The notes beneath the pieces were generated by a model, which saw nothing but the letters and a program-made list of their open reading frames with translations, was not told the origin of the DNA and did no database searches. The position numbers and the translations under genes were made by a program. A DNA stretch of 32,291 nt from an uncultured Mycoplasmatota bacterium (GTDB lineage Bacteria > Bacillota_I > Bacilli_A > RF39 > UBA660). The DNA lies in NCBI GenBank assembly GCA_948432605.1, contig CAOJCV010000004.1:1-32291 (forward strand), given 5' to 3'. Each line of letters starts with the position of its first letter. Within the stretch, counting starts at the first letter, position 1. This document shows, in pieces, positions 1,670 through 24,179 of this stretch.

Positions 1670-1849
1670 ATGAAAGTAAAATGTTTTGATGAAAATTCAG
1701 AAAAGGATTTAGAATCTAAAATAAATTCTTTTCTTGCATCTATAAATGGTGATATAATAGAAATTAAGTATGAGGTCGCGATCGGAATTCAAGGTGAAGA
1801 TCAAATTTATTGTTTTTCTGCGATGGTGATTTATTGTGCAAAGGAATGA
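1670..1849 (+). CDS. Cse60-like small protein (DUF2758 family)
   Basis: The product is 59 aa from the ATG at 1670, preceded by AGGGGAGTG with about 8 bases of spacing. An in-frame GTG at 1661 lies inside that ribosome site and was rejected. The sequence MKVKCFDENSEKDLESKIN ... IYCFSAMVIY matches the layout of Bacillus Cse60/YteV, whose conserved core ends in IYCFSAMIIY. Cse60 is a sigma-E-dependent sporulation protein in Bacillus subtilis; its biochemical function is unknown, and nothing here proves that this organism sporulates. The stop codon ends 4 bases before the start of the flippase gene, so the two are probably translated from one message. Confidence 0.75.
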   Translation: MKVKCFDENSEKDLESKINSFLASINGDIIEIKYEVAIGIQGEDQIYCFSAMVIYCAKE

Positions 1850-1853
1850 TACA

Positions 1854-3503
1854 ATGAAAAAAAGCTCTTTTATTGAAGGAACTATCATTGCAACTCTTGC
1901 AATAGTAATTACAAAAATTTTAGGGATGTTATATGTAATTCCTTTTTATGCAATGATTGGTGTAAAAGGAAGTGCTCTTTATGCGTATGCTTATAATATT
2001 TATGTTATATTTTTAGATATTTCTTCTGCAGGACTTCCTGTTGCTATTTCTAAAATTATTAAGGAGTATAATACGCTTGGTTTAATGGATGCTAAGAAAA
2101 GAGCATATCAATTAGGGAAAAAGATTATAAATTCAGTATCGGTTGTAGCTTTTATAATTTTATTTTTCTTTGCAGAAAGTCTCGCGACATTAATTCTTGG
2201 AGAATTACAAGGCGGTAATACGATTTTAGATGTTACTTTTGTGATTCGTTGCGTTTCTTTTGCAATTTTGGTTATTCCATTTCTTAGTGTTTCTAAAGGT
2301 TATTTACAAGGTCACAATATTATAAATGTTTCTAGTTTTAGTCAAGTAATTGAGCAAATTGTCAGGATTACTATTATTTTAGGAGGATGTTATCTTGCAT
2401 TAAATGTATTTCATCTTTCTTTAACGACATCGGTAGGAATTGCAGTTTTTGGAGCTTTTGTTGGAGGAATTGTAGCTATTTGTTATATTCAGTGGAATAT
2501 GCGAAAGTATAAAAAAGAATTAGGTCTTATCGATTCTCCAAAAAAAGATAAAGTTACTAATTTAGAAATTGTTAAAAAGATTTTAATGTATGCTGTTCCT
2601 TTTATTATTATAGATGTCGCAGTTTCAATTTATAATTTTGTAGATATGGTTTTTATTTCCAGAACAATGACGTCTTTAGGATATTCAGCTTCAGTAACGG
2701 AGTTTGTCACTTCTTCTGTTGCAACTTGGTCTGGTAAAATTAGTATGATTGTTAATTCAATCGCTATGGGTTTAACTGTAAGCTTAATTCCAAATATTGT
2801 GGAAGCATACACTTTAAAAAAATGGGATTTAGTAGAGTCTAGGCTTAACAAAGCTTTACAAATTATTTTTATTACATGTATACCTATGGTAATTGGAATT
2901 TCTTTATTATCTAAGCCTATTTGGAGTATTTTTTATGGTACTAGTGAGCTTCAATTAGGGTCTTTGGTTTTATCATTTTACATTTTTATTGCATTATTTT
3001 TTAATATTTACATGGTTACATCGTCAACTTTACAAAGTTTAAATAAATTTAAAGCTGTTTATTTTACAACTTTTCTTGGATATTTGACAAATGCTATTTT
3101 AGATATACCACTTATGATTTTATTTCATAAGTTAGGATTTCAACCATTTATTGGGGCTGTTACAGCAAGTGCATTAGGTTATTCTTTATCTGCCTTTTCT
3201 ACGATTTTGCTATTGCGAAAAAAGCATCAAATTAAATATGGAATAACAATTAAAACTTTGAAGAAAATTATAGTTCCTACTTGTGCTATGTTATTTGTTG
3301 TGGTTCTTCTTATGTGGTTAATGCCAGTAAATTATTTTAGTAAAGTTTCATGTATTTTTTATGTATCACTTATTTCTATTCTTGGGGCTTTTGTATATTT
3401 ATTTATTTCTTATAGACAAAATTTATTAAGCGAAATATTTGGAAAAGAATATTTACAAAAAGTTGTCAAAAGATTAACGTTAGGAAAAATTAATTTAAAG
3501 TAA
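1854..3503 (+). CDS. YtgP/SpoVB/MurJ-type MOP-superfamily flippase
   Basis: The product is 549 aa from the ATG at 1854, chosen because AAAGGA lies about 8 bases upstream; the in-frame GTG at 1836 lies in the preceding gene. About 14 hydrophobic segments cover the protein. The N-terminus (SFIEGTIIATLAIVITKILGMLYVIPF) is typical of the polysaccharide-biosynthesis/SpoVB/YtgP branch of the MOP/MATE superfamily. Conserved elements include the amphipathic G-S-A-L-Y-A-Y-A-Y-N-I-Y region, SAGLPVAISKII, and SKGYLQGHN near residue 145. Members flip lipid-linked envelope precursors such as lipid II (YtgP/MurJ of B. subtilis) or act in spore cortex synthesis (SpoVB); the substrate here cannot be decided from sequence. 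It sits directly behind a Cse60-like gene. Confidence 0.85.
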   Translation: MKKSSFIEGTIIATLAIVITKILGMLYVIPFYAMIGVKGSALYAYAYNIYVIFLDISSAGLPVAISKIIKEYNTLGLMDAKKRAYQLGKKIINSVSVVAFIILFFFAESLATLILGELQGGNTILDVTFVIRCVSFAILVIPFLSVSKGYLQGHNIINVSSFSQVIEQIVRITIILGGCYLALNVFHLSLTTSVGIAVFGAFVGGIVAICYIQWNMRKYKKELGLIDSPKKDKVTNLEIVKKILMYAVPFIIIDVAVSIYNFVDMVFISRTMTSLGYSASVTEFVTSSVATWSGKISMIVNSIAMGLTVSLIPNIVEAYTLKKWDLVESRLNKALQIIFITCIPMVIGISLLSKPIWSIFYGTSELQLGSLVLSFYIFIALFFNIYMVTSSTLQSLNKFKAVYFTTFLGYLTNAILDIPLMILFHKLGFQPFIGAVTASALGYSLSAFSTILLLRKKHQIKYGITIKTLKKIIVPTCAMLFVVVLLMWLMPVNYFSKVSCIFYVSLISILGAFVYLFISYRQNLLSEIFGKEYLQKVVKRLTLGKINLK

Positions 3504-3525
3504 AATTTAAATTAATATAAATAAA

Positions 3526-3542
3526 AAAGTGCTAAGCACTTT
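3526..3542 (-). terminator. Terminator of the Met/Asn-rich protein gene
   Basis: AAAGTGCT and AGCACTTT form an 8-bp inverted repeat around one base (effectively a 5-nt loop). On the minus strand it is followed by TTTTTTAT. It overlaps the stop codon of the minus-strand gene and also lies just beyond the flippase gene, but the plus side lacks a T-run. Confidence 0.6.
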
Positions 3543-3879
3543 AAACCATATACATATTTCCATCATCATAGTTGGTTGTATTATTAAATGCATTTCCTTC
3601 TAATTTTGAAAGTCTTGCATCTAAACGGTTGATATTTCTTTCTAATTTTGATATTCTACTTTCAAGTTCAGTCATAGAAGAGTTATTTGGATTCATATTT
3701 GGATAAGCTGGTAGTGGGGTAGGCATCGGAATATTTTGTGATGCATAAAAGTTAGCGCTAGCTGTGTTCATAGTGTTTGGCATTCCCATATTTGGACCCA
3801 TCATTGGATTCATATTTTGTCCCATTGCACTCATGTTAAAATTTGAACTTTCAAAAAATGAATTACGGTCTTTTTTCAT
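3541..3879 (-). CDS. Met/Asn/Pro-rich protein with C-terminal coiled coil, hypothetical
   Basis: The product is 112 aa with a very strong ribosome site (AAAGGAGG) before the ATG at 3879. Residues about 15-65 are low-complexity, rich in Met, Asn and Pro with repeated MGxNMxP-like units (MNPMMGPNMGMPNTMN). Residues about 70-95 form a heptad-like stretch (LESRISKLERNINRLDARLSKLE) expected to make a coiled coil. There is no signal peptide or membrane segment. Short Met/Asn/Pro-rich proteins with a coiled coil occur among Bacillota coat or assembly proteins, but no family is recognised here and no function is assigned. It is transcribed divergently from trmB. Confidence 0.65.
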   Translation of the reverse strand: MKKDRNSFFESSNFNMSAMGQNMNPMMGPNMGMPNTMNTASANFYASQNIPMPTPLPAYPNMNPNNSSMTELESRISKLERNINRLDARLSKLEGNAFNNTTNYDDGNMYMV

Positions 3880-3891
3880 AAAGTCCTCCTT

Positions 3892-3904
3892 TATAATAAC
3901 TATA
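3892..3904. promoter_or_regulatory. Putative divergent promoter region (Met/Asn-rich gene and trmB)
   Basis: The 52-base gap between the divergent genes holds TATAAT on the plus strand (3892-3897, possible trmB -10) and TATAGT on the minus strand (3904-3899, possible -10 for the other gene). Neither has a clear -35 box, and the two boxes nearly abut. Confidence 0.35.
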
Positions 3905-3931
3905 TGCTAATTTTTAGAAAGAAGTGATAAT

Positions 3932-4564
3932 ATGCGTTTAAGAAATGTAAAAAATGCGAAAGAAAAATTAGAATCTTGTAATCTTTTTATTGCAAATCCA
4001 GTAGATTATAAAGAAAAATGGAGTAGTGTTTTTCAAAATGATCATGAGATACATCTTGAAATTGGTATGGGAAAAGGAGATTTTTTAATTGCTATGGCAA
4101 AAGCTTATCCTAATATTAATTTTATAGGTATGGAAAAATATGAAAGTGTTTTGGTAAGGGCAATCGAAAAAATATCTTTAGAGAATATTCCTAATTTAAG
4201 ATTTATGTGTTTTGACGCAAAAAATCTTCAGGATGTTTTTTATAAAGAAATTTCGAAAATTTATCTTAATTTTTCAGATCCTTGGCCAAAAACTAGACAT
4301 GCTAAAAGAAGACTTACTCATGCCAATTTTTTGGCAATTTATGATAATCTTTTTCAAAATGAAAAAGTAATAGTACAGAAAACGGATAATATTGATTTGT
4401 TTGCTTTTAGTTTGGAACAATTATCTTTATATGGTTATATTTTTAAACGTGTAAGTTTAGATCTTTCTTCTTTGGCTATTCCTAATTTTAAAACTGAATA
4501 TGAACAAAAATTTGAAAATTTAGGTTATAAAATTAATTATGTAGAAGCATATAAGAAAATATAG
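3932..4564 (+). CDS. trmB: tRNA (guanine-N7-)-methyltransferase TrmB
   Basis: The 210-aa product, the normal length of TrmB, forms m7G at position 46 of tRNAs using S-adenosylmethionine. The SAM-binding loop is at residues 43-50 (EIGMGKGD). The family hallmark FSDPWPKTRHAKRRL starts at residue 114 and contains the conserved Asp116 and the Arg/His/Lys cluster. Near the C-terminus the family's T-E-Y-E-x-K-F motif is present (TEYEQKF). The ATG at 3932 is preceded by GAAAGAAGTG. It stands alone, divergent from the Met/Asn-rich protein gene, with no clear terminator before the next promoter. Confidence 0.95.
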   Translation: MRLRNVKNAKEKLESCNLFIANPVDYKEKWSSVFQNDHEIHLEIGMGKGDFLIAMAKAYPNINFIGMEKYESVLVRAIEKISLENIPNLRFMCFDAKNLQDVFYKEISKIYLNFSDPWPKTRHAKRRLTHANFLAIYDNLFQNEKVIVQKTDNIDLFAFSLEQLSLYGYIFKRVSLDLSSLAIPNFKTEYEQKFENLGYKINYVEAYKKI

Positions 4565-4610: not shown

Positions 4611-4619
4611 TGTTATAAT
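4611..4619 (+). promoter_or_regulatory. Extended -10 promoter for the tandem paralogue pair
   Basis: TGTTATAAT (extended -10: TG, one base, TATAAT at 4614-4619), with only a T-rich tract where a -35 box would be. Transcription is expected to start near 4626, just ahead of the AGGTGGG ribosome site. Confidence 0.6.
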
Positions 4620-4644
4620 AGGTTCCATTAGGTGGGTGGTTTGT

Positions 4645-6474
4645 TTGGAATTATTTGATAAATTATTAGATAATGCTTTAGAATTAGAAATTCTTTTTTC
4701 AAAAATAAAAGATAAGGAATCAGAAAGGCATGTTTATTCTGTGCCATTAGAGTATTATATCTCTAAAGAAACAGAAATTTTAAAAAGTATTTCTGCTTCG
4801 GATTTAGAAAATCTTGTGTCTTATATGAAGTCACGTTATGGATTTACTTTTGATGGCTTGTTTTTTCCTAAATTTTTTCTTTATAAAGATAATCATTTAT
4901 GTGTTTTACGTGTTTATAGACAAATATTTCAATTGAATCAGTTTTATCAGTTACAGAAATTGAGCAATGTATCTTGTTTTGAAGCTGAAAAATTAAGTAT
5001 TAGTTCTTACATGGTTGGTGTAAAAAATCAAGCAAATGCGATTTCTCTTTTTGAATCTATTTTGTTAAATAATTATCTTACTTTAGATTCTAAATATGAA
5101 TCAAAATTATCTTATCTTTATTTAACACTTGATAATAAATCTTGTGTCAAAAAGGATGTTTTTTCTTCTTCATTCATAGAAGATGTTCTAAAGTTTGTTG
5201 GATGCGATATTTATGAACTTTCAAATTCTATTTTTGAGCATTGTTTTAATTCAGAATTTTTAAGTATCTTTCAAAGTTATTTCTTTTCTTTAGAAGAAGA
5301 GTATCGCCAAGATATTTTTCAATTTATAAAAGCGGCTTATTTAAAGTGTAAAGAACATAATGAATCTTTATCTTGTGATTGGGTTACAGATTTTTTGAAA
5401 GATTATTTTGTTGGGCAATTAAATTTTTCTTTAATCGAGCCTCTTGCTATAAAACCATCTGCAAAAATAAAAAATTTCAGTTTTTCTGAACTTTCTTATT
5501 TTGATAGCATCTTCTTTTCTCTTATGGATATGACAAAGGAAATTTGGCATTTTTGTAAAGTAGTTATGGAAAGTAAGGCTAACAATGAACCAACTGAATC
5601 TCGTACTATTTATTATGAAAAGATAAAATCTTTATTGGCTAATAGAGAAATGTTCATGGATAAAATTGTTAATTTTGAAGATTTTCAGGAATATGTTCTT
5701 TTAGTTTATGGTGTAGAAGAAATAGACCCACTTTTTCTTGTTTCTCTTACCTCATCTGTTATTCATAATAGTTCTTTAGAAGATATTGAAGTAGAATATT
5801 CTTTAATAGAGGAATTTGTAGTGCGTTTTATTTTAGATTCTTCTAAAAGTATTGAACTTGATAGTAAGATCGAGCAAGATGGGATTTCAACTTCTTTATA
5901 TGAGCCTGATATTGATGAAGTTTCCATGCGTGTTTCAAAATTAGAAAAGGTATTGAAAGCATTTATTTCTTATTTTCGTAGTCATTCTACAGAAGAAGAC
6001 TTTTATGAAAAAATGAATGAATTACAATTTGATGTTGAGGATCTTTTTGAAGAAGAATCATTAAGTGAAGAAATGGATTCTATTATTTACAATAATTTTC
6101 AATTTTGTTTATATCAATATTTACTTACTCATCAAAACGATTCCTCATGTTACAAAGAAATATTATATGCTTATATTATTACTCATTTATTAGATGGAGA
6201 ATTAGACCTTTTAATTCAAAATGATTTTCAAAATAATCAAATTCCTTTAAGTACAAGAGAATTAAGTGAAAAGGAACTTATGGATTTAGAAGAAGAGTAT
6301 TATTCTCTTATTGAAATGATGTGTGAAAATTATCCTTTAAAAAGTGATTTTTCAGATACAGTATTTCACATTTATATAGAAGCATTGTCTTATATCTTTT
6401 CTGAAGAATCTTTGAATGCTTTTGAAAATTTATATTTTGGAGATCAAAATATTTTAAAAAAAGGTGGAAAATAA
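4645..6474 (+). CDS. Unrecognised large helical protein, paralogue A of a tandem pair
   Basis: The product is 609 aa if started at TTG 4645, which has AGGTGGG about 9 bases upstream; the in-frame GTG at 4636 overlaps that site. It is soluble, predicted mostly alpha-helical, acidic and rich in Phe, Tyr, Ser and Glu, with no signal peptide or membrane segment. I do not recognise a domain. It is clearly related to the next gene: both have a YGFTF/FGFTF element (residues 65-69 here) followed by a V-x-R-x-Y-Q/R motif. Both also have a mid-protein F-D-S-I-F-x-x-L segment, and matching C-terminal segments (L-L-I-Q-N-D-F here, L-I-K-Q-D-F in B, each followed by an L-I-E/F-I-E helix). It ends one base before the partner's start, so the two are probably made together and could form a heterodimer (inference). 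Confidence 0.7.
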   Translation: MELFDKLLDNALELEILFSKIKDKESERHVYSVPLEYYISKETEILKSISASDLENLVSYMKSRYGFTFDGLFFPKFFLYKDNHLCVLRVYRQIFQLNQFYQLQKLSNVSCFEAEKLSISSYMVGVKNQANAISLFESILLNNYLTLDSKYESKLSYLYLTLDNKSCVKKDVFSSSFIEDVLKFVGCDIYELSNSIFEHCFNSEFLSIFQSYFFSLEEEYRQDIFQFIKAAYLKCKEHNESLSCDWVTDFLKDYFVGQLNFSLIEPLAIKPSAKIKNFSFSELSYFDSIFFSLMDMTKEIWHFCKVVMESKANNEPTESRTIYYEKIKSLLANREMFMDKIVNFEDFQEYVLLVYGVEEIDPLFLVSLTSSVIHNSSLEDIEVEYSLIEEFVVRFILDSSKSIELDSKIEQDGISTSLYEPDIDEVSMRVSKLEKVLKAFISYFRSHSTEEDFYEKMNELQFDVEDLFEEESLSEEMDSIIYNNFQFCLYQYLLTHQNDSSCYKEILYAYIITHLLDGELDLLIQNDFQNNQIPLSTRELSEKELMDLEEEYYSLIEMMCENYPLKSDFSDTVFHIYIEALSYIFSEESLNAFENLYFGDQNILKKGGK

Positions 6475-6475
6475 T

Positions 6476-8230
6476 ATGGAAAGTTATGAACAGATAAATA
6501 ATTATAGTAATTGTATATATAAAATTTTAAAAAAAATGAATCAAAATGATTTAAAAGAGGAAGAATATGAATTACTTAATTCGCTTCTTCGAGAAATTTA
6601 TCAAAAAGAAGAGACTTATCTTGGTAATATGAATTCTAAGTCTTTTCAAGATTTAATTATTTATATAAAAGAAACATTTGGTTTTACTTTTTCAGAAACA
6701 ATCTATGAAGCATTAATTACTTATTCTTTTGAATTACCAGTTTTTAGAACTTATCAAAGAGTGAAAACAGAATATGACCGTCGCAGATTTTCTTCTCTTT
6801 TTATAAAAGAAGAAAATTCTTTTGTAGAAAATGAAATGATAAAAAAGATGAAAGATGCTCAAAAATGTATTTTTGGTTTGGATTTTTGTGTACATCGTTA
6901 TGTAAAAGATTATGATGATTTTACTTTGCAATATTTATTTTCTTCTTTTTCCTATCCTTTTAGTTCTAGTTTTACTTTTTTAGAAAACTTATTTTTGAAA
7001 GAAGATACTTATTTATCCTTAGATTATGAATATTCTTTTCCTGTTGTGCAAAGTTATCTCTTTTCTTTCATTCATACTTTTTTGAAAACTTCTAATTTAA
7101 AATATTTGGAGTATTTTAAATATTATATTACTTTAATTCCAGATGATTTTTATGAAGAGTTAGTTCAATCTCTTGAGGCTCAATATGCAAGTATTCAGCA
7201 TGCTGATTTTTCTTCTAAAGATTTAGATTCTTTAAATCAAGTATTTCTTATAAGTGGTTTACGAAAAATGAATTTAAATAATTCTTTAGAAGCAGAAGAA
7301 ACGTTTAAAAGTGAATTATTACAATTTTCTTATTCTGATATTGTAGAATTTGATTCTATTTTTTCTGAACTATATTCTTTTTCTTCTGCAATTTTGAATT
7401 TAATGTATCAAATTTATCAAAGTAAAATAAATCATGAAAATAGAGAAGCTAGGGAACTATTATTTATTAAACTCGTTAAATTAAATCAAGTAGAAAATGA
7501 GTTTTTGGATAAGGTATCTAATGTAGAATTGTTTCAAAAATATATTATGATTTGTAATGATACAAATTTTGTAACTTTACCGTTTCAACTTTATGATGTA
7601 GCTTTAGAAATTTTAAATTCTTCAAAAGATTTAAGTTTAGTAAAGAGACTTATACGTGATCGAGTTTATTCTAAGGCTATGCTTTTAAAAGAGAATCAAT
7701 CTTCTTTTCCGATTGCTTTTGATTCTGAAGTTTTGGTAATTGATCATCCTGTTCATTCTATTGGAGATTTATTTAACTATTTACTTTCTTTTACTTCTTC
7801 AGTAGACTCATCAATTCAAGAACCTTTTTGTATGGATCGTATTTTAGTTTATCAAGATCAGGAAATGTATCGTTATTTTAAAGAACATTTAACAGAAGAA
7901 AATCAAAGTCTTTATTATTTAATGATGTATCTTTTACTTTACCGAGATCCTTCTATTCTTACTACTTTAATTAAACAAGACTTTGAATATGATTATTCTA
8001 CAATTGCGCCTCAAATTAATTTAGATGATTTACTTCAAGTTGGTGAAATTCTTCATAATTTTATTGAACTTGCTTGTGAAGAATCTTTAGAACGTGAGAA
8101 ACCTGAATTATTTATGGCTTATTTAAAAACTTTTGAACCTTTTTTATCAAAAGAAATGTGTCAAACGCTTTTGGATGCTTATGAAGGAACTAGAGAAGAA
8201 TTTAAAAGAGAAAGAAAAAGGCGAGAATAG
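6476..8230 (+). CDS. Unrecognised large helical protein, paralogue B of a tandem pair
   Basis: The product is 584 aa from the ATG at 6476, with AGGTGG 8 bases upstream overlapping the end of paralogue A; an in-frame GTG at 6464 lies inside that ribosome site. It is helical, soluble and acidic, apart from a very basic tail (F-K-R-E-R-K-R-R-E). The shared FGFTF motif lies at about residues 68-72. Similarity to A is spread over the full length, so this is an old duplication rather than a shared small domain. No known catalytic motif, nucleotide-binding loop or metal-binding cluster is visible. The gene ends inside a terminator, so the two paralogues form a closed two-gene operon separate from tex. 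Confidence 0.7.
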   Translation: MESYEQINNYSNCIYKILKKMNQNDLKEEEYELLNSLLREIYQKEETYLGNMNSKSFQDLIIYIKETFGFTFSETIYEALITYSFELPVFRTYQRVKTEYDRRRFSSLFIKEENSFVENEMIKKMKDAQKCIFGLDFCVHRYVKDYDDFTLQYLFSSFSYPFSSSFTFLENLFLKEDTYLSLDYEYSFPVVQSYLFSFIHTFLKTSNLKYLEYFKYYITLIPDDFYEELVQSLEAQYASIQHADFSSKDLDSLNQVFLISGLRKMNLNNSLEAEETFKSELLQFSYSDIVEFDSIFSELYSFSSAILNLMYQIYQSKINHENREARELLFIKLVKLNQVENEFLDKVSNVELFQKYIMICNDTNFVTLPFQLYDVALEILNSSKDLSLVKRLIRDRVYSKAMLLKENQSSFPIAFDSEVLVIDHPVHSIGDLFNYLLSFTSSVDSSIQEPFCMDRILVYQDQEMYRYFKEHLTEENQSLYYLMMYLLLYRDPSILTTLIKQDFEYDYSTIAPQINLDDLLQVGEILHNFIELACEESLEREKPELFMAYLKTFEPFLSKEMCQTLLDAYEGTREEFKRERKRRE

Positions 8231-8240
8231 CCTTTTTTTT
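8216..8240 (+). terminator. Rho-independent terminator of the tandem paralogue operon
   Basis: AAAAGGC / GCCTTTT stem with 7-nt loop (GAGAATA), followed by further T residues. The left arm is the last codons of paralogue B and the stop codon is in the hairpin. Confidence 0.85.
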
Positions 8241-8287
8241 CTTGCAAATTTTTAGTAAAATAAGAAAGGTATGTTAGGAGTGTAAGA

Positions 8288-10423
8288 ATGAACAATATTG
8301 AATTATTATCGAATACTTTAGGGGTAAAAGTTTCTCAAATTGAAGCAGTTTTAAAATTGTTAAGTGAAGGTGCTACTATACCTTTTATTGCTCGTTATAG
8401 AAAAGAAGCAACAGGTTCTTTAGATGAAGAACAAATTCGCGTTATTGAAAAAGAATATACTTATCTTGAAAATTTATCTAAACGAAAAGATGATGTTATT
8501 CGTTTAATTGAAGAAAAAGATTTGATGACCGAAGAATTAAAAATTCAAATTCTTAATTGTACAAAACTTAGTGATGTAGAGGATTTGTATCGTCCATTTA
8601 AAGAAAAGAAAAAAACAAAGGCAAGTGAAGCTATTAAAATGGGTTTAGAACCACTGGCTAAAAAGATTATGGCTTTTCCTATCAATGGTAATATAGAAAA
8701 TCTTGCAAATGGATTTGAATGTGATTTAGACACTGCTGTTCAAGGTGCTAAATATATTATTGCAGAATGGATAAGTGATAATGCTTATTATAGAAAGTTA
8801 ATTAAAAATGAAATTTTTAGAAATGGATGTATTGTAAGTAAGTTAAAGAAAAATGCAGAAGATGAAAAGAAGACATATCAAATGTATTATGATTTTTCTG
8901 AACCTATTTTTCGAGCAAGGCATTATCGTATTCTGGCTATGAATCGTGGAGAAACTGAAAAAATTTTAACAATTTCTTTAGATTTTGATAAGGAGAAAAT
9001 TTTAGAAGTTTTAAAAAATAAAATTATTAAAAATCAAGACTCATTTGTTGTTCCTCTAGTTCATGAAGCTATTATGGATGCTTTAAAAAGGTTAATTTAT
9101 CCAAGTGTTGAAAGAGAAATTAGAGTGGATTTAACAGAGGATGCTTCCAAAAAAGCTATTTTAACTTTTCAAGATAATTTAGAACATCTTTTAATGACTA
9201 AGCCAATTAAGGATAAAGTTGTTTTAGGTTTTGATCCAGCTTTTCGTACAGGGTGTAAGTTAGCTGTTTTAAATCCTTATGGGGAAGTTTTAGAAATTGA
9301 AACCATTTTTCCACATGAGCCTAAAAAGGAAACAGAAAAAGCACGTGCAGTTTTGCAAAGTTTAATTCAAAAATATGGTGTTCAAATTGTTGCTATTGGT
9401 AATGGAACTGCTAGTCGTGAAAGTGAAGCATTTGTAGCTGATACGATTCGAGGATCAAATGTATTATATAATTTGGTTAGTGAAGCTGGAGCAAGTGTGT
9501 ATTCTGCAAGCCCTTTAGCTATTTCTGAATTTCCGGATTTGACTGTTGAGAAACGCAGTGCTATTTCAATTGGTAGAAGAGTACAAGATCCACTTTCTGA
9601 ACTTGTTAAGATTGATCCAAAAAGCATTGGAGTTGGAGAGTATCAACATGATGTAAACCAAAAAGAACTTGGAGAAGCACTTGATTTTACAGTTTCAAAA
9701 ATTGTAAATGAAATCGGAGTAAATATTAATACTGCTAGTTTTAGTATTTTAAAACATATTTCTGGTTTAACGAAAAAGACAATACAAAGTATTTTAGATT
9801 TTCGTAAGAAAAAACCATTTACTTCACGTGAGGAGGTAAAAAGTCTTTCTGGTTTTAGCGATAAAGTTTTTGAACAATCTATTGGCTTTTTAAGAATTGT
9901 TGATGGAAAAAATATTTTAGATAAAACAAGAATTCATCCAGAAAGTTATTCTTTGGTTCAATCTTTATTGAATGAATTAAATTTAGATCTAAACTCTTTT
10001 GGAACTGAAGAATTTAACAATGTTTTGTCGAAATGCGACGTAAATGAACTATCAAATGAACTGTCATGTGATTTGTATACTTTACGAGATATTGTAGAAG
10101 AATTACAAAATCCTGGTCAAGATTATCGAGATAAATTAGACGACATTGTTCTAAAAAGTGATATTTTAACGATTCAAGATTTAAGTATTGGAATGGAGCT
10201 CACTGGTACAGTTAGAAATGTTACTAGTTTTGGAGCATTTGTTGATATTGGATTACATGATGATGGATTAATTCATATTTCTAAAATGAGTAAAGGATTT
10301 GTAAAAAATCCTAGTGATATAGTAAGTGTTGGTGATATTGTTACCGTTTATGTTTGTGGAATTGATTTGGAAAAAGAGAAAGTTCAATTATCTTTAATAA
10401 AAGAATTTATGGATAAGGAGTAA
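8288..10423 (+). CDS. tex: Tex family RNA-binding transcription accessory protein
   Basis: The 711-aa product has the standard Tex layout. The N-terminal helical Tex domain (about residues 1-200) includes GATIPFIARYRKE and DVEDLYRPFKEKKKT. A YqgF/RNase-H-like domain begins at about residue 310 (VVLGFDPAFRTGCKLAV) and continues through AIGNGTASRE. Tandem helix-hairpin-helix motifs lie at about 480-545 (NTASFSILKHISGL ... FTSREEVKSLSGF). The C-terminal S1 RNA-binding domain spans about 635-705 (TGTVRNVTSFGAFVDIGLHDDGLIHISKM). Tex is a cytosolic RNA/nucleic-acid-binding protein of the transcription machinery in the family. The ATG at 8288 has TTAGGAG upstream. It is probably co-transcribed with the DUF1653 gene 5 bases downstream. 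Confidence 0.95.
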   Translation: MNNIELLSNTLGVKVSQIEAVLKLLSEGATIPFIARYRKEATGSLDEEQIRVIEKEYTYLENLSKRKDDVIRLIEEKDLMTEELKIQILNCTKLSDVEDLYRPFKEKKKTKASEAIKMGLEPLAKKIMAFPINGNIENLANGFECDLDTAVQGAKYIIAEWISDNAYYRKLIKNEIFRNGCIVSKLKKNAEDEKKTYQMYYDFSEPIFRARHYRILAMNRGETEKILTISLDFDKEKILEVLKNKIIKNQDSFVVPLVHEAIMDALKRLIYPSVEREIRVDLTEDASKKAILTFQDNLEHLLMTKPIKDKVVLGFDPAFRTGCKLAVLNPYGEVLEIETIFPHEPKKETEKARAVLQSLIQKYGVQIVAIGNGTASRESEAFVADTIRGSNVLYNLVSEAGASVYSASPLAISEFPDLTVEKRSAISIGRRVQDPLSELVKIDPKSIGVGEYQHDVNQKELGEALDFTVSKIVNEIGVNINTASFSILKHISGLTKKTIQSILDFRKKKPFTSREEVKSLSGFSDKVFEQSIGFLRIVDGKNILDKTRIHPESYSLVQSLLNELNLDLNSFGTEEFNNVLSKCDVNELSNELSCDLYTLRDIVEELQNPGQDYRDKLDDIVLKSDILTIQDLSIGMELTGTVRNVTSFGAFVDIGLHDDGLIHISKMSKGFVKNPSDIVSVGDIVTVYVCGIDLEKEKVQLSLIKEFMDKE

Positions 10424-13379: not shown

Positions 13380-14609
13380 ATGAATTATTTTACAATAAAT
13401 ACGAATGAAATGAAACGAGAAATTGTCAATTATTCAAATTATTTGACAAAAGATATCGCTTTAAAGTCAGAAAAAGACTTTTTAAGAGATATGCTTTATG
13501 GAATAAGTGCATCTAATAGTTTGATGCTATCTGATATTTCTAGAAAATTGCAAGAAAAAATAAAACTAGATAATACCATAGAAAGATTAAGTATTCATTT
13601 AGCAAATGAAATAGAAGGAAAAAGAAGTATAGAAGAAAATTACTATAAATTTGTAAGAGGAAGGATACCAGAAAATCCAATAGTTGATTTTGATAATACA
13701 GATATAACAAAACTATATGGAAAAAATTTGAATATTTAGATACAGTAGTAGATGCAAGTGATTCTAAAAAAGAAAAGAAACCAGGATATCCAGTAGTAAA
13801 TGCAGTAGTGCTAGGAAAGAATAAAAAACAACCCATCCCGATATATAGTAAAATAGTATCAACGAAAGATCCAGAATTTAAAAGTATGAATACTTATACA
13901 TTAGAAAGTATAGATAAGGCGTATGAAGCAGTAGGAAAATTTACAGGAGTATTTGATAGAGGATATGATGATAAAAAGATATTTCGATATATGGATAAAT
14001 TAGGATTAGAATTTGTAATAAGGTTAAAAACAAATCGAAACTTTCTGTTTAAAGGAAAAGTAAAAAATGTATTGGAACAAGCCAATTCGAGAAAAGGAAA
14101 AATTATGTTTAAAGCTAGATTTCAAGGAGAAGAAAAACAATTAACGATAAGTTATACAAGGGTTCAAATGACAGATGGCAAACAAGAAGAATATACATGT
14201 GTATTTGTATATGGACTTTCTGAAGAACCAATGATGTTACTAACAAATAAACAAGTAAAAAGTGCACATGAAGCAAGAGTCATAGTAAGAATGTATTTAA
14301 ATAGATGGAAAATAGAAGAAGTACATCGAGCAGAAAAACAGAGTTATGAGTATGAAAATATGAGAGTGAGAACATTAAAAGGAATGAATAATTTAAACTT
14401 TATATTTATGATGTTGCTGGGATTCATATCAAAATTAATAGAAGAAATGGATAAAAGATTGCTATCCATCAAAATAATGGAAAGAAGTCAGTCATTAAGA
14501 GAAGATTTAGTAGTGTTTTATTAGTATGTTTGCAAGAGGAATAAAAGAGATATTATCGTATGCATATATAGGAGTTTCGCATTTTAAGAAGAAAAAGAAA
14601 ATAGAATAA
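13380..14609 (+). pseudogene. IS4-family transposase, broken by two single-base frame errors
   Basis: Translation starts at ATG 13380 behind GAGGAGGT. Frame 1 runs to a stop at 13739 (119 aa). Homology continues in the -1 frame from the A6 run at 13721-13726 (FEYLDTVVDASDSKK...) to a stop at 14524. A third piece (MFARGIKEILSYAYIGVSHF) returns to the first frame at 14526-14609. Restoring one A and deleting the G at about 14523 would give a protein of about 409 aa. DDE residues are present: Asp in TVVDASD, Asp in GVFDRGYD, and Glu in the exact Y-x2-R-x3-E-x6-K signature (YLNRWKIEEVHRAEK). The first break lies at A AAA AAT, a possible -1 slippery heptamer, so programmed frameshifting is an alternative there; the second break looks like decay or a sequence error. 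Confidence 0.85.
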
Positions 14610-23534: not shown

Positions 23535-23541
23535 ATATTGA

Positions 23542-23570
23542 GAAGTGATTTAATTCACTTTTCTTTTTTT
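23542..23570 (+). terminator. Terminator-like hairpin in the leader of the alarmone synthetase gene
   Basis: AAGTGA / TCACTT stem (23543-23548 and 23555-23560) around TTTAAT, followed by TTCTTTTTTT. It lies after the promoter and before the ribosome site (GAGG, 23576-23579). It could therefore be an attenuator in the 5' leader, or a relic terminator of the upstream gene. Confidence 0.55.
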
Positions 23571-23585
23571 GAATTGAGGTTTTTT

Positions 23586-24179
23586 ATGATTAATGGACTA
23601 TATATAAAATATGAATATGCAAAGCAAATGCTTCAAACGGAATTAGAAATTTTATTACATTCTTTTGAACATAAGCATGGATATAATCCTGTAGAGCATA
23701 TGAAATCTAGAATGAAATCTATTTCTAGTATTGAGAAAAAATTAGAGCAAAAAGGTCTTAATAATTCTTTTTTAAATATTGAGAAATCTATTACTGACGT
23801 GGTTGGGTTTCGTATTGTTGTATCTTTTATTTCAGATGTTTATGATATTGTTTCTTTGATTACTCATTCACCTAATCTTATTGTTAAAGAAAGAAAAGAT
23901 TACATTCGTACTCCAAAGAATAGTGGCTACACAAGTTATCATTTAATTGTTTTGGTTCCTATTTATTTAGAAAATGTTGTAGAGTACATACCTGCTGAAA
24001 TTCAAGTAAGAACTGTAGCAATGGATTTTTGGGCTAGTTTAGATCATAAAATTCGTTATAAATTTAAAGAAGAAATACCAGAAGATGTTCAACAGAAAAT
24101 GGAGGAGTATGCAAAAGATATTCAAGAACTTGATTATAAAATGTATTATTTAAATCAGGTTATGAGTAAATATCAATAG
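23586..24179 (+). CDS. relQ: Small alarmone synthetase, RelQ/YjbM type ((p)ppGpp synthetase)
   Basis: The product is 197 aa from the ATG at 23586, with TTGAGG upstream; an in-frame start at 23538 would run through the leader hairpin. A single RelA/SpoT synthetase domain is present with no hydrolase, TGS or ACT domains. Motifs include N-P-V-E-H-M-K-S-R-M-K-S-I-S-S-I, DVVGFRIVVSFISDVY, KERKDYIRTPKNSGYTSYHL and EIQVRTVAMDFWASLDHKIRYK; the last two carry the ATP/GTP-binding and catalytic residues, including Glu in E-I-Q-V-R-T. It should transfer pyrophosphate from ATP to GTP or GDP and make (p)ppGpp in the cytosol. Mature size and motif order fit RelQ rather than RelP, but the paralogue assignment is tentative. 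Confidence 0.85.
   Translation: MINGLYIKYEYAKQMLQTELEILLHSFEHKHGYNPVEHMKSRMKSISSIEKKLEQKGLNNSFLNIEKSITDVVGFRIVVSFISDVYDIVSLITHSPNLIVKERKDYIRTPKNSGYTSYHLIVLVPIYLENVVEYIPAEIQVRTVAMDFWASLDHKIRYKFKEEIPEDVQQKMEEYAKDIQELDYKMYYLNQVMSKYQ

Follow-up and report, generated by a model that had tools for sequence, protein, structure and literature searches.

A fast-changing orphan protein family of uncultured gut Bacilli, encoded beside tex in most carrier genomes and as a tandem pair in two

Known hypervariable chromosomal loci that are exchanged by homologous recombination between conserved flanks encode capsules, restriction systems or effectors. Orphan protein families are also, as such, a familiar kind of thing, and they can reflect fast change combined with failure of homology detection (PMC7660931). 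The locus described here lies in a window of 32,291 nucleotides, the whole of contig C4 of a MAG from an uncultured Mycoplasmatota bacterium (1.06 Mb, 78.6% complete). It comprises two genes, A and B, followed by the gene tex. The features read in this region are the following.

4611-4619, + strand: extended -10 promoter-like element TG-T-TATAAT, without a good -35 (sequence reading)
4630-4635, + strand: Shine-Dalgarno-like AGGTGG of gene A (sequence reading)
4645-6474, + strand: gene A including stop (coding 4645-6471), 609 aa, TTG start
4651-4833, + strand: predicted internal helical module of about 60 aa, copy 1, residues 3-63 of A (hhalign)
5509-5712, + strand: predicted internal helical module, copy 2, residues ~289-356 of A (hhalign)
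6460-6467, + strand: Shine-Dalgarno-like AAAGGTGG of gene B, within the 3' end of A (sequence reading)
6476-8230, + strand: gene B including stop (coding 6476-8227), 584 aa, ATG start, paralogue of A
8208-8243, + strand: intrinsic terminator (AAAAAGGC...GCCTTTTTTTT), hairpin then T-run, overlapping the 3' end of B
8288-10423, + strand: tex, with Tex_N, Tex_YqgF, S1 and HHH Pfam matches, used as synteny anchor

The ORF reading bears out the two-gene arrangement of the original prediction, with products of 609 and 584 aa and a single base separating the stop of A from the ATG of B. The TTG, nine bases behind AGGTGG, is the best-fitting start of A; a second in-frame option, GTG at 4636, is disfavoured because it leaves too little room behind the ribosome-binding site. 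Gene B carries a Shine-Dalgarno-like stretch of its own, so the "strict" translational coupling to A that had been proposed is unproven. The pair had also been credited with its own promoter and terminator. The second of these holds: the unit is closed behind B by a predicted terminator (-13.5 kcal/mol, z -2.6), and several relatives have a hairpin and T-run at the equivalent position. The extended -10 is readable, and its action as promoter of A and B is rated only as plausible because a good -35 is missing and a scan of this AT-rich region gave 37 promoter-like matches against 31 expected, which is the chance level.

A and B are related along their full length, as had been claimed. BLASTP aligns them with an E-value of 1e-9 across A197-353, their global alignment reaches z = 14.9 against local shuffles, and the N-terminal and C-terminal thirds score z = 4.5 and 4.2, respectively, against the same kind of control. 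The motifs quoted as shared (YGFTF/FGFTF, V.R.Y, FDSIF and LIQNDF/LIKQDF) fall in common columns of the family alignment, and YG[FY][TD]F is found again in further members. This paralogy supports an origin of the two genes by tandem duplication. Their identity is 19%, both ORFs are intact, and their branches (2.06 for A and 2.45 for B) are among the longest in the family tree. When the N-terminal part is compared with the middle part by hhalign (E 2e-6), residues 3-63 of A are found repeated at about 289-356, so that the protein holds two copies of one helical module.

Neither A nor B has a match in Pfam or NCBIfam above the curated cut-off. Among all 17 family members, searches of Pfam-A, PHROGs and PADLOC gave chance-level matches only, led by RH_dom (0.011, Pfam) and Csm2 (0.0043, PADLOC); the NCBIfam search covered A and B. 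The family profile found nothing significant among PDB sequences (best 0.32). With Foldseek at E <= 0.001, the models of A and of L046, a single-copy member, retrieved nothing from the PDB, where only generic helical proteins were listed, and the model of L046 retrieved nothing from viral models. Phage searches for family homologues likewise found nothing; the variability of the profile was too high for viral contigs to be scanned with a pattern. The profile searches called for by the original prediction thus uphold its view that no known family is visible, and A and B are members of a new, previously undescribed orphan protein family.

A direct search with A among 59 relatives found only genome G015, and a search with B found no other genome among the 37 of the genus, so that by sequence search alone the window pair would pass for an isolated two-gene system. 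The position beside a conserved gene recovers the family where sequence search fails. The gene tex, a separate unit behind the terminator of B and a conserved neighbour of the family gene, was located in 35 of the 37 congeners, and the region upstream of it was then read in loci from uncultured Bacilli/Tenericutes MAGs. In 13 genomes tex is directly preceded by one ORF of about 555-602 aa, and G014, inferred across a contig break, is the fourteenth. Leave-one-out profiles, built without the tested member and its closest relatives, matched all 17 members with E-values no higher than 1.2e-28, and none of 671 decoy ORFs did better than 2.6e-3; A was matched at 2e-51 and B at 1e-28. Both fit the definition of a tex-adjacent orphan family (held-out match over their length, ~555-615 aa, all-alpha, acidic), the all-alpha character being taken from the AF2 model of A.

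The genus-wide profile search places the family in 19 of 37 genomes; in 16 of them, G014 included, the gene adjoins tex and has the same direction. The three others carry the gene away from tex, flanked by the genes of a sortase-domain protein and a MurJ-like flippase in G025 and G032 and by metG and tatD in G059. The G059 member is the most divergent and the least certain, although its length is that of the others: the genome search matched it over 66 residues at E 7e-5, and a small local set gave 8e-9. No family gene stands beside tex in the congener MAG Candidatus Ventrenecus stercoripullorum, and the metG-tatD gap of other species holds no family member. In the genome of the window, a 626-aa HerA/DUF87 ATPase is encoded between metG and tatD (contig C49, L134:890-2767, minus strand); in most relatives read these two genes abut. 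Sampled profile searches outside the genus found no member in 149 other genera of its taxonomic family, in 191 of the class or in 154 of the phylum, and tex in other genera is preceded by a different gene. As far as profiles can see, the family appears confined to a single genus of uncultured Bacilli from the gut; absence beyond the genus may be a failure of detection (PMC7660931) and not a truly new origin, because orthologues within it are already only 14-20% identical.

One full-length copy is found in 17 of the 19 carrier genomes, beside tex in 14 and elsewhere in three, and only the window and G015 have a tandem pair. The G015 pair, its genes 21 bp apart, lies directly upstream of tex, and no hidden second copies are present upstream of the family genes of G029 and G023. 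The idea of a pair-specific system was dropped after the tex-upstream gene had been read in about 30 congeners: the two-gene arrangement is an exception in the family and not the system itself. The original prediction took duplication and strict coupling as signs of a two-subunit complex, a view to be given up if homologues often stood singly in unrelated contexts; this is largely the case, and an obligate A:B complex is for that reason unsupported for the family. For the window pair, the reading that A and B would be specialised, obligate subunits translated from one mRNA draws on the one-base spacing, on full-length paralogy, on the tandem pair of G015 at an equivalent place and on the fact that both copies stay intact despite their low identity and long branches. 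It is nevertheless doubtful in view of the single-copy genomes and of the Shine-Dalgarno sequence of B. In addition, an AU test fails to show the two pairs as one old duplication. Neither the grouping of A with B (p-AU 0.45) nor that of the two G015 copies (p-AU 0.43) is rejected, and A groups weakly with the downstream G015 copy, not with the upstream one, in a tree that is unresolved at such depth. The window and G015 may share one duplication or may have had two separate ones. The window pair itself may have become a heteromer, a reading that can coexist with the scaffold role proposed below.

The soluble and helical character ascribed to A and B fits the family at large, whose sequences have no evident transmembrane or signal segment. 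Every member has a pI of 4.5-5.3 (4.5 for A and 4.7 for B). AF2 predicts an all-helical structure for A (pLDDT 76.5, pTM 0.69) and an all-alpha one for L046 (pLDDT 80.0, pTM 0.52); the packing of domains is uncertain in both models, and "scaffold" as used below is therefore no fold assignment. No column is invariant among 17 aligned sequences, Q104 and Y355 being near-invariant. In a set of 15 sequences a C-terminal K is invariant and Q104, F347, Y355, P362 and Y577 are nearly so. These residues read as structural, and the lack of conserved catalytic-type residues argues against a conserved active site. In 20 of 21 members, three or more of the ten C-terminal residues are K/R. This basic tail was considered as a functional signal, a view weakened because the 5' arm of the terminator, rich in A, overlaps the end of the ORF and itself writes Lys/Arg codons. 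The overlap accounts partly for the Lys/Arg-rich C-terminus; the G059 copy runs directly into tatD, yet has the basic tail too.

Family members are mostly 14-30% identical, whereas Tex of the same genomes is 74-84% identical to that of the window. Close pairs give a dN/dS of about 0.32-0.43 for the family gene against about 0.02-0.07 for tex where dS is not tiny, which speaks for a genuine coding gene under weak purifying selection; for distant pairs the Nei-Gojobori dS is near saturation. Between G034 and G035, dS is 0.03 for the RNB gene, 0.44 for lgt, 1.59 for the gene of a small exported protein, 0.98 for a camelysin/TasA-like gene, 0.91 for the family gene and 0.06 for tex. The divergent stretch from lgt to the family gene thus stands between near-identical flanks, and the simplest account is that homologous recombination replaced some 4-5 kb as a block, lgt included. 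The case is one genome pair, in which MAG chimerism is possible, though the assemblies are independent records.

Several other observations concern gene order and mobility around these loci. The gene of ~633-670 aa upstream of lgt (L018:5495-7393, minus strand; also in G008, G013, G019, G027, G034 and G035) codes an N-terminal part of ~300 aa with no Pfam match, followed by an RNB exoribonuclease domain (E 1e-38). Its ~633-aa form was considered as a further family member and set aside, being ribonuclease-like with no family match. The G013 copy shares only about 40% identity with its counterparts in close relatives, so this gene also looks swapped. On contig C2 of G034, the first ~70 residues of an ORF (L128:3715-4158) match the N-terminus of the tex-linked copy of that genome and continue into unrelated sequence. 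This extra N-terminal fragment of 77 residues, preceded by a camelysin/TasA-like gene as at the tex locus, is interpreted as either a partial duplication or an assembly chimera. Directly upstream of A, positions 1836-4564 of the window hold a MurJ-like flippase gene and trmB; the family gene of G025 lies within about 5 kb of the same two genes in a different order, hinting that the MurJ/trmB and tex regions were rearranged together. Downstream of a C39-peptidase gene, an ORF of 238 aa (13808-14521) with a partial DDE_Tnp_1 Pfam match codes a DDE transposase, suggesting insertion-sequence activity within the window.

It is tentatively proposed that the family protein serves in the cytosol as a non-enzymatic helical scaffold or adaptor binding a fast-changing partner, a reading that may well be right and that leaves ample room for others. 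The gene encodes an acidic, apparently soluble protein, all-alpha by prediction, with a helical module repeated in its N-terminal and middle parts. The protein would reside in the cytosol and act by binding or scaffolding and not by catalysis, a role proposed because of the missing catalytic signature and the all-alpha prediction. Its partner would change fast; replacement of the family alleles along with neighbouring surface-protein genes is seen in one genome pair. In the window and G015 both copies kept after tandem duplication may act together, and a single copy suffices in most relatives. For the family, neither a partner nor a ligand nor any homologue with a known function turned up, and its fast change could also be mere loss of constraint.

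The genes of the exchanged block invite a role at the cell surface, in which the family protein would be an intracellular factor working with the variable exported proteins. Its co-replacement with lgt, the small exported protein and the camelysin/TasA-like gene (Pfam Peptidase_M73) in G034/G035 agrees with this, as do the sortase-domain and MurJ-like neighbours in G025 and G032 and an LRR-type exported protein beside the G015 copies. Such a role is nonetheless unlikely, for members in G033, G021, G027 and the window have no camelysin/TasA-like gene beside them and the linkage may reflect only a recombining region. Rather improbable is a related reading, in which a genus-specific cytosolic helical protein of new fold, swapped as a cassette with surface-protein genes, would be a recognition component; recombination would renew its specificity, and in two species tandem duplication would have given two specificities. 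An arms race could also drive the fast change if the protein were an anti-phage sensor or effector, and patchy presence in the genus (19 of 37) and block exchange are compatible with this. The idea is likewise rather improbable: PADLOC matches of members stay at chance level (best 0.0043), no phage homologue was found, and a stable adjacency to tex is not what a defence island would show. Around the family gene stand tex, lgt, uvrA and camelysin-like genes, none of them a defence gene; among nine neighbours in the window, PADLOC gave a single match, a RelA/SpoT-domain protein (23538-24176, PDC-S33) 15 kb away. That same adjacency, co-directional in most carriers, would suit a partner or regulator of Tex. 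This is very improbable, given the terminator that intervenes in the window and similar hairpins in relatives, the three genomes with the gene far from tex, the near-universal presence of tex but not of the family gene, and the conservation of Tex set against the divergence of the family protein. The helical scaffold or adaptor remains the preferred, tentative reading.

The significance of the family lies in a large, apparently structured bacterial protein that differs this much between orthologues of one genus while the product of the adjoining gene stays conserved. Should a changing partner lie behind this speed, the family offers a natural allele series for finding it.

The helical prediction recalls alpha-solenoid or HEAT/ARM scaffolds (importins, cohesin STAG, designed armadillo repeats), which are all-alpha and lead the Foldseek list for L046. 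The resemblance is in secondary structure only (best E 0.13, TM about 0.15 to 0.2), and HEAT or ARM Pfam matches in the family do not rise above chance. The G034/G035 block resembles hypervariable loci exchanged between conserved flanks in the contrast of dS between its genes (0.44 to 1.59) and their flanks (0.03 and 0.06), and differs in its content, namely lgt, exported proteins and a protein without export signal. A further likeness is to lineage-specific orphan families (PMC7660931): members are seen only in close relatives, most are revealed by synteny and not by sequence, and with 14-20% identity within the genus remote homologues are expected to escape detection. The family stands apart from these in its size of ~600 aa, its predicted structure and internal repeat, its tandem duplication and, in one case, the exchange of its alleles as part of a block.
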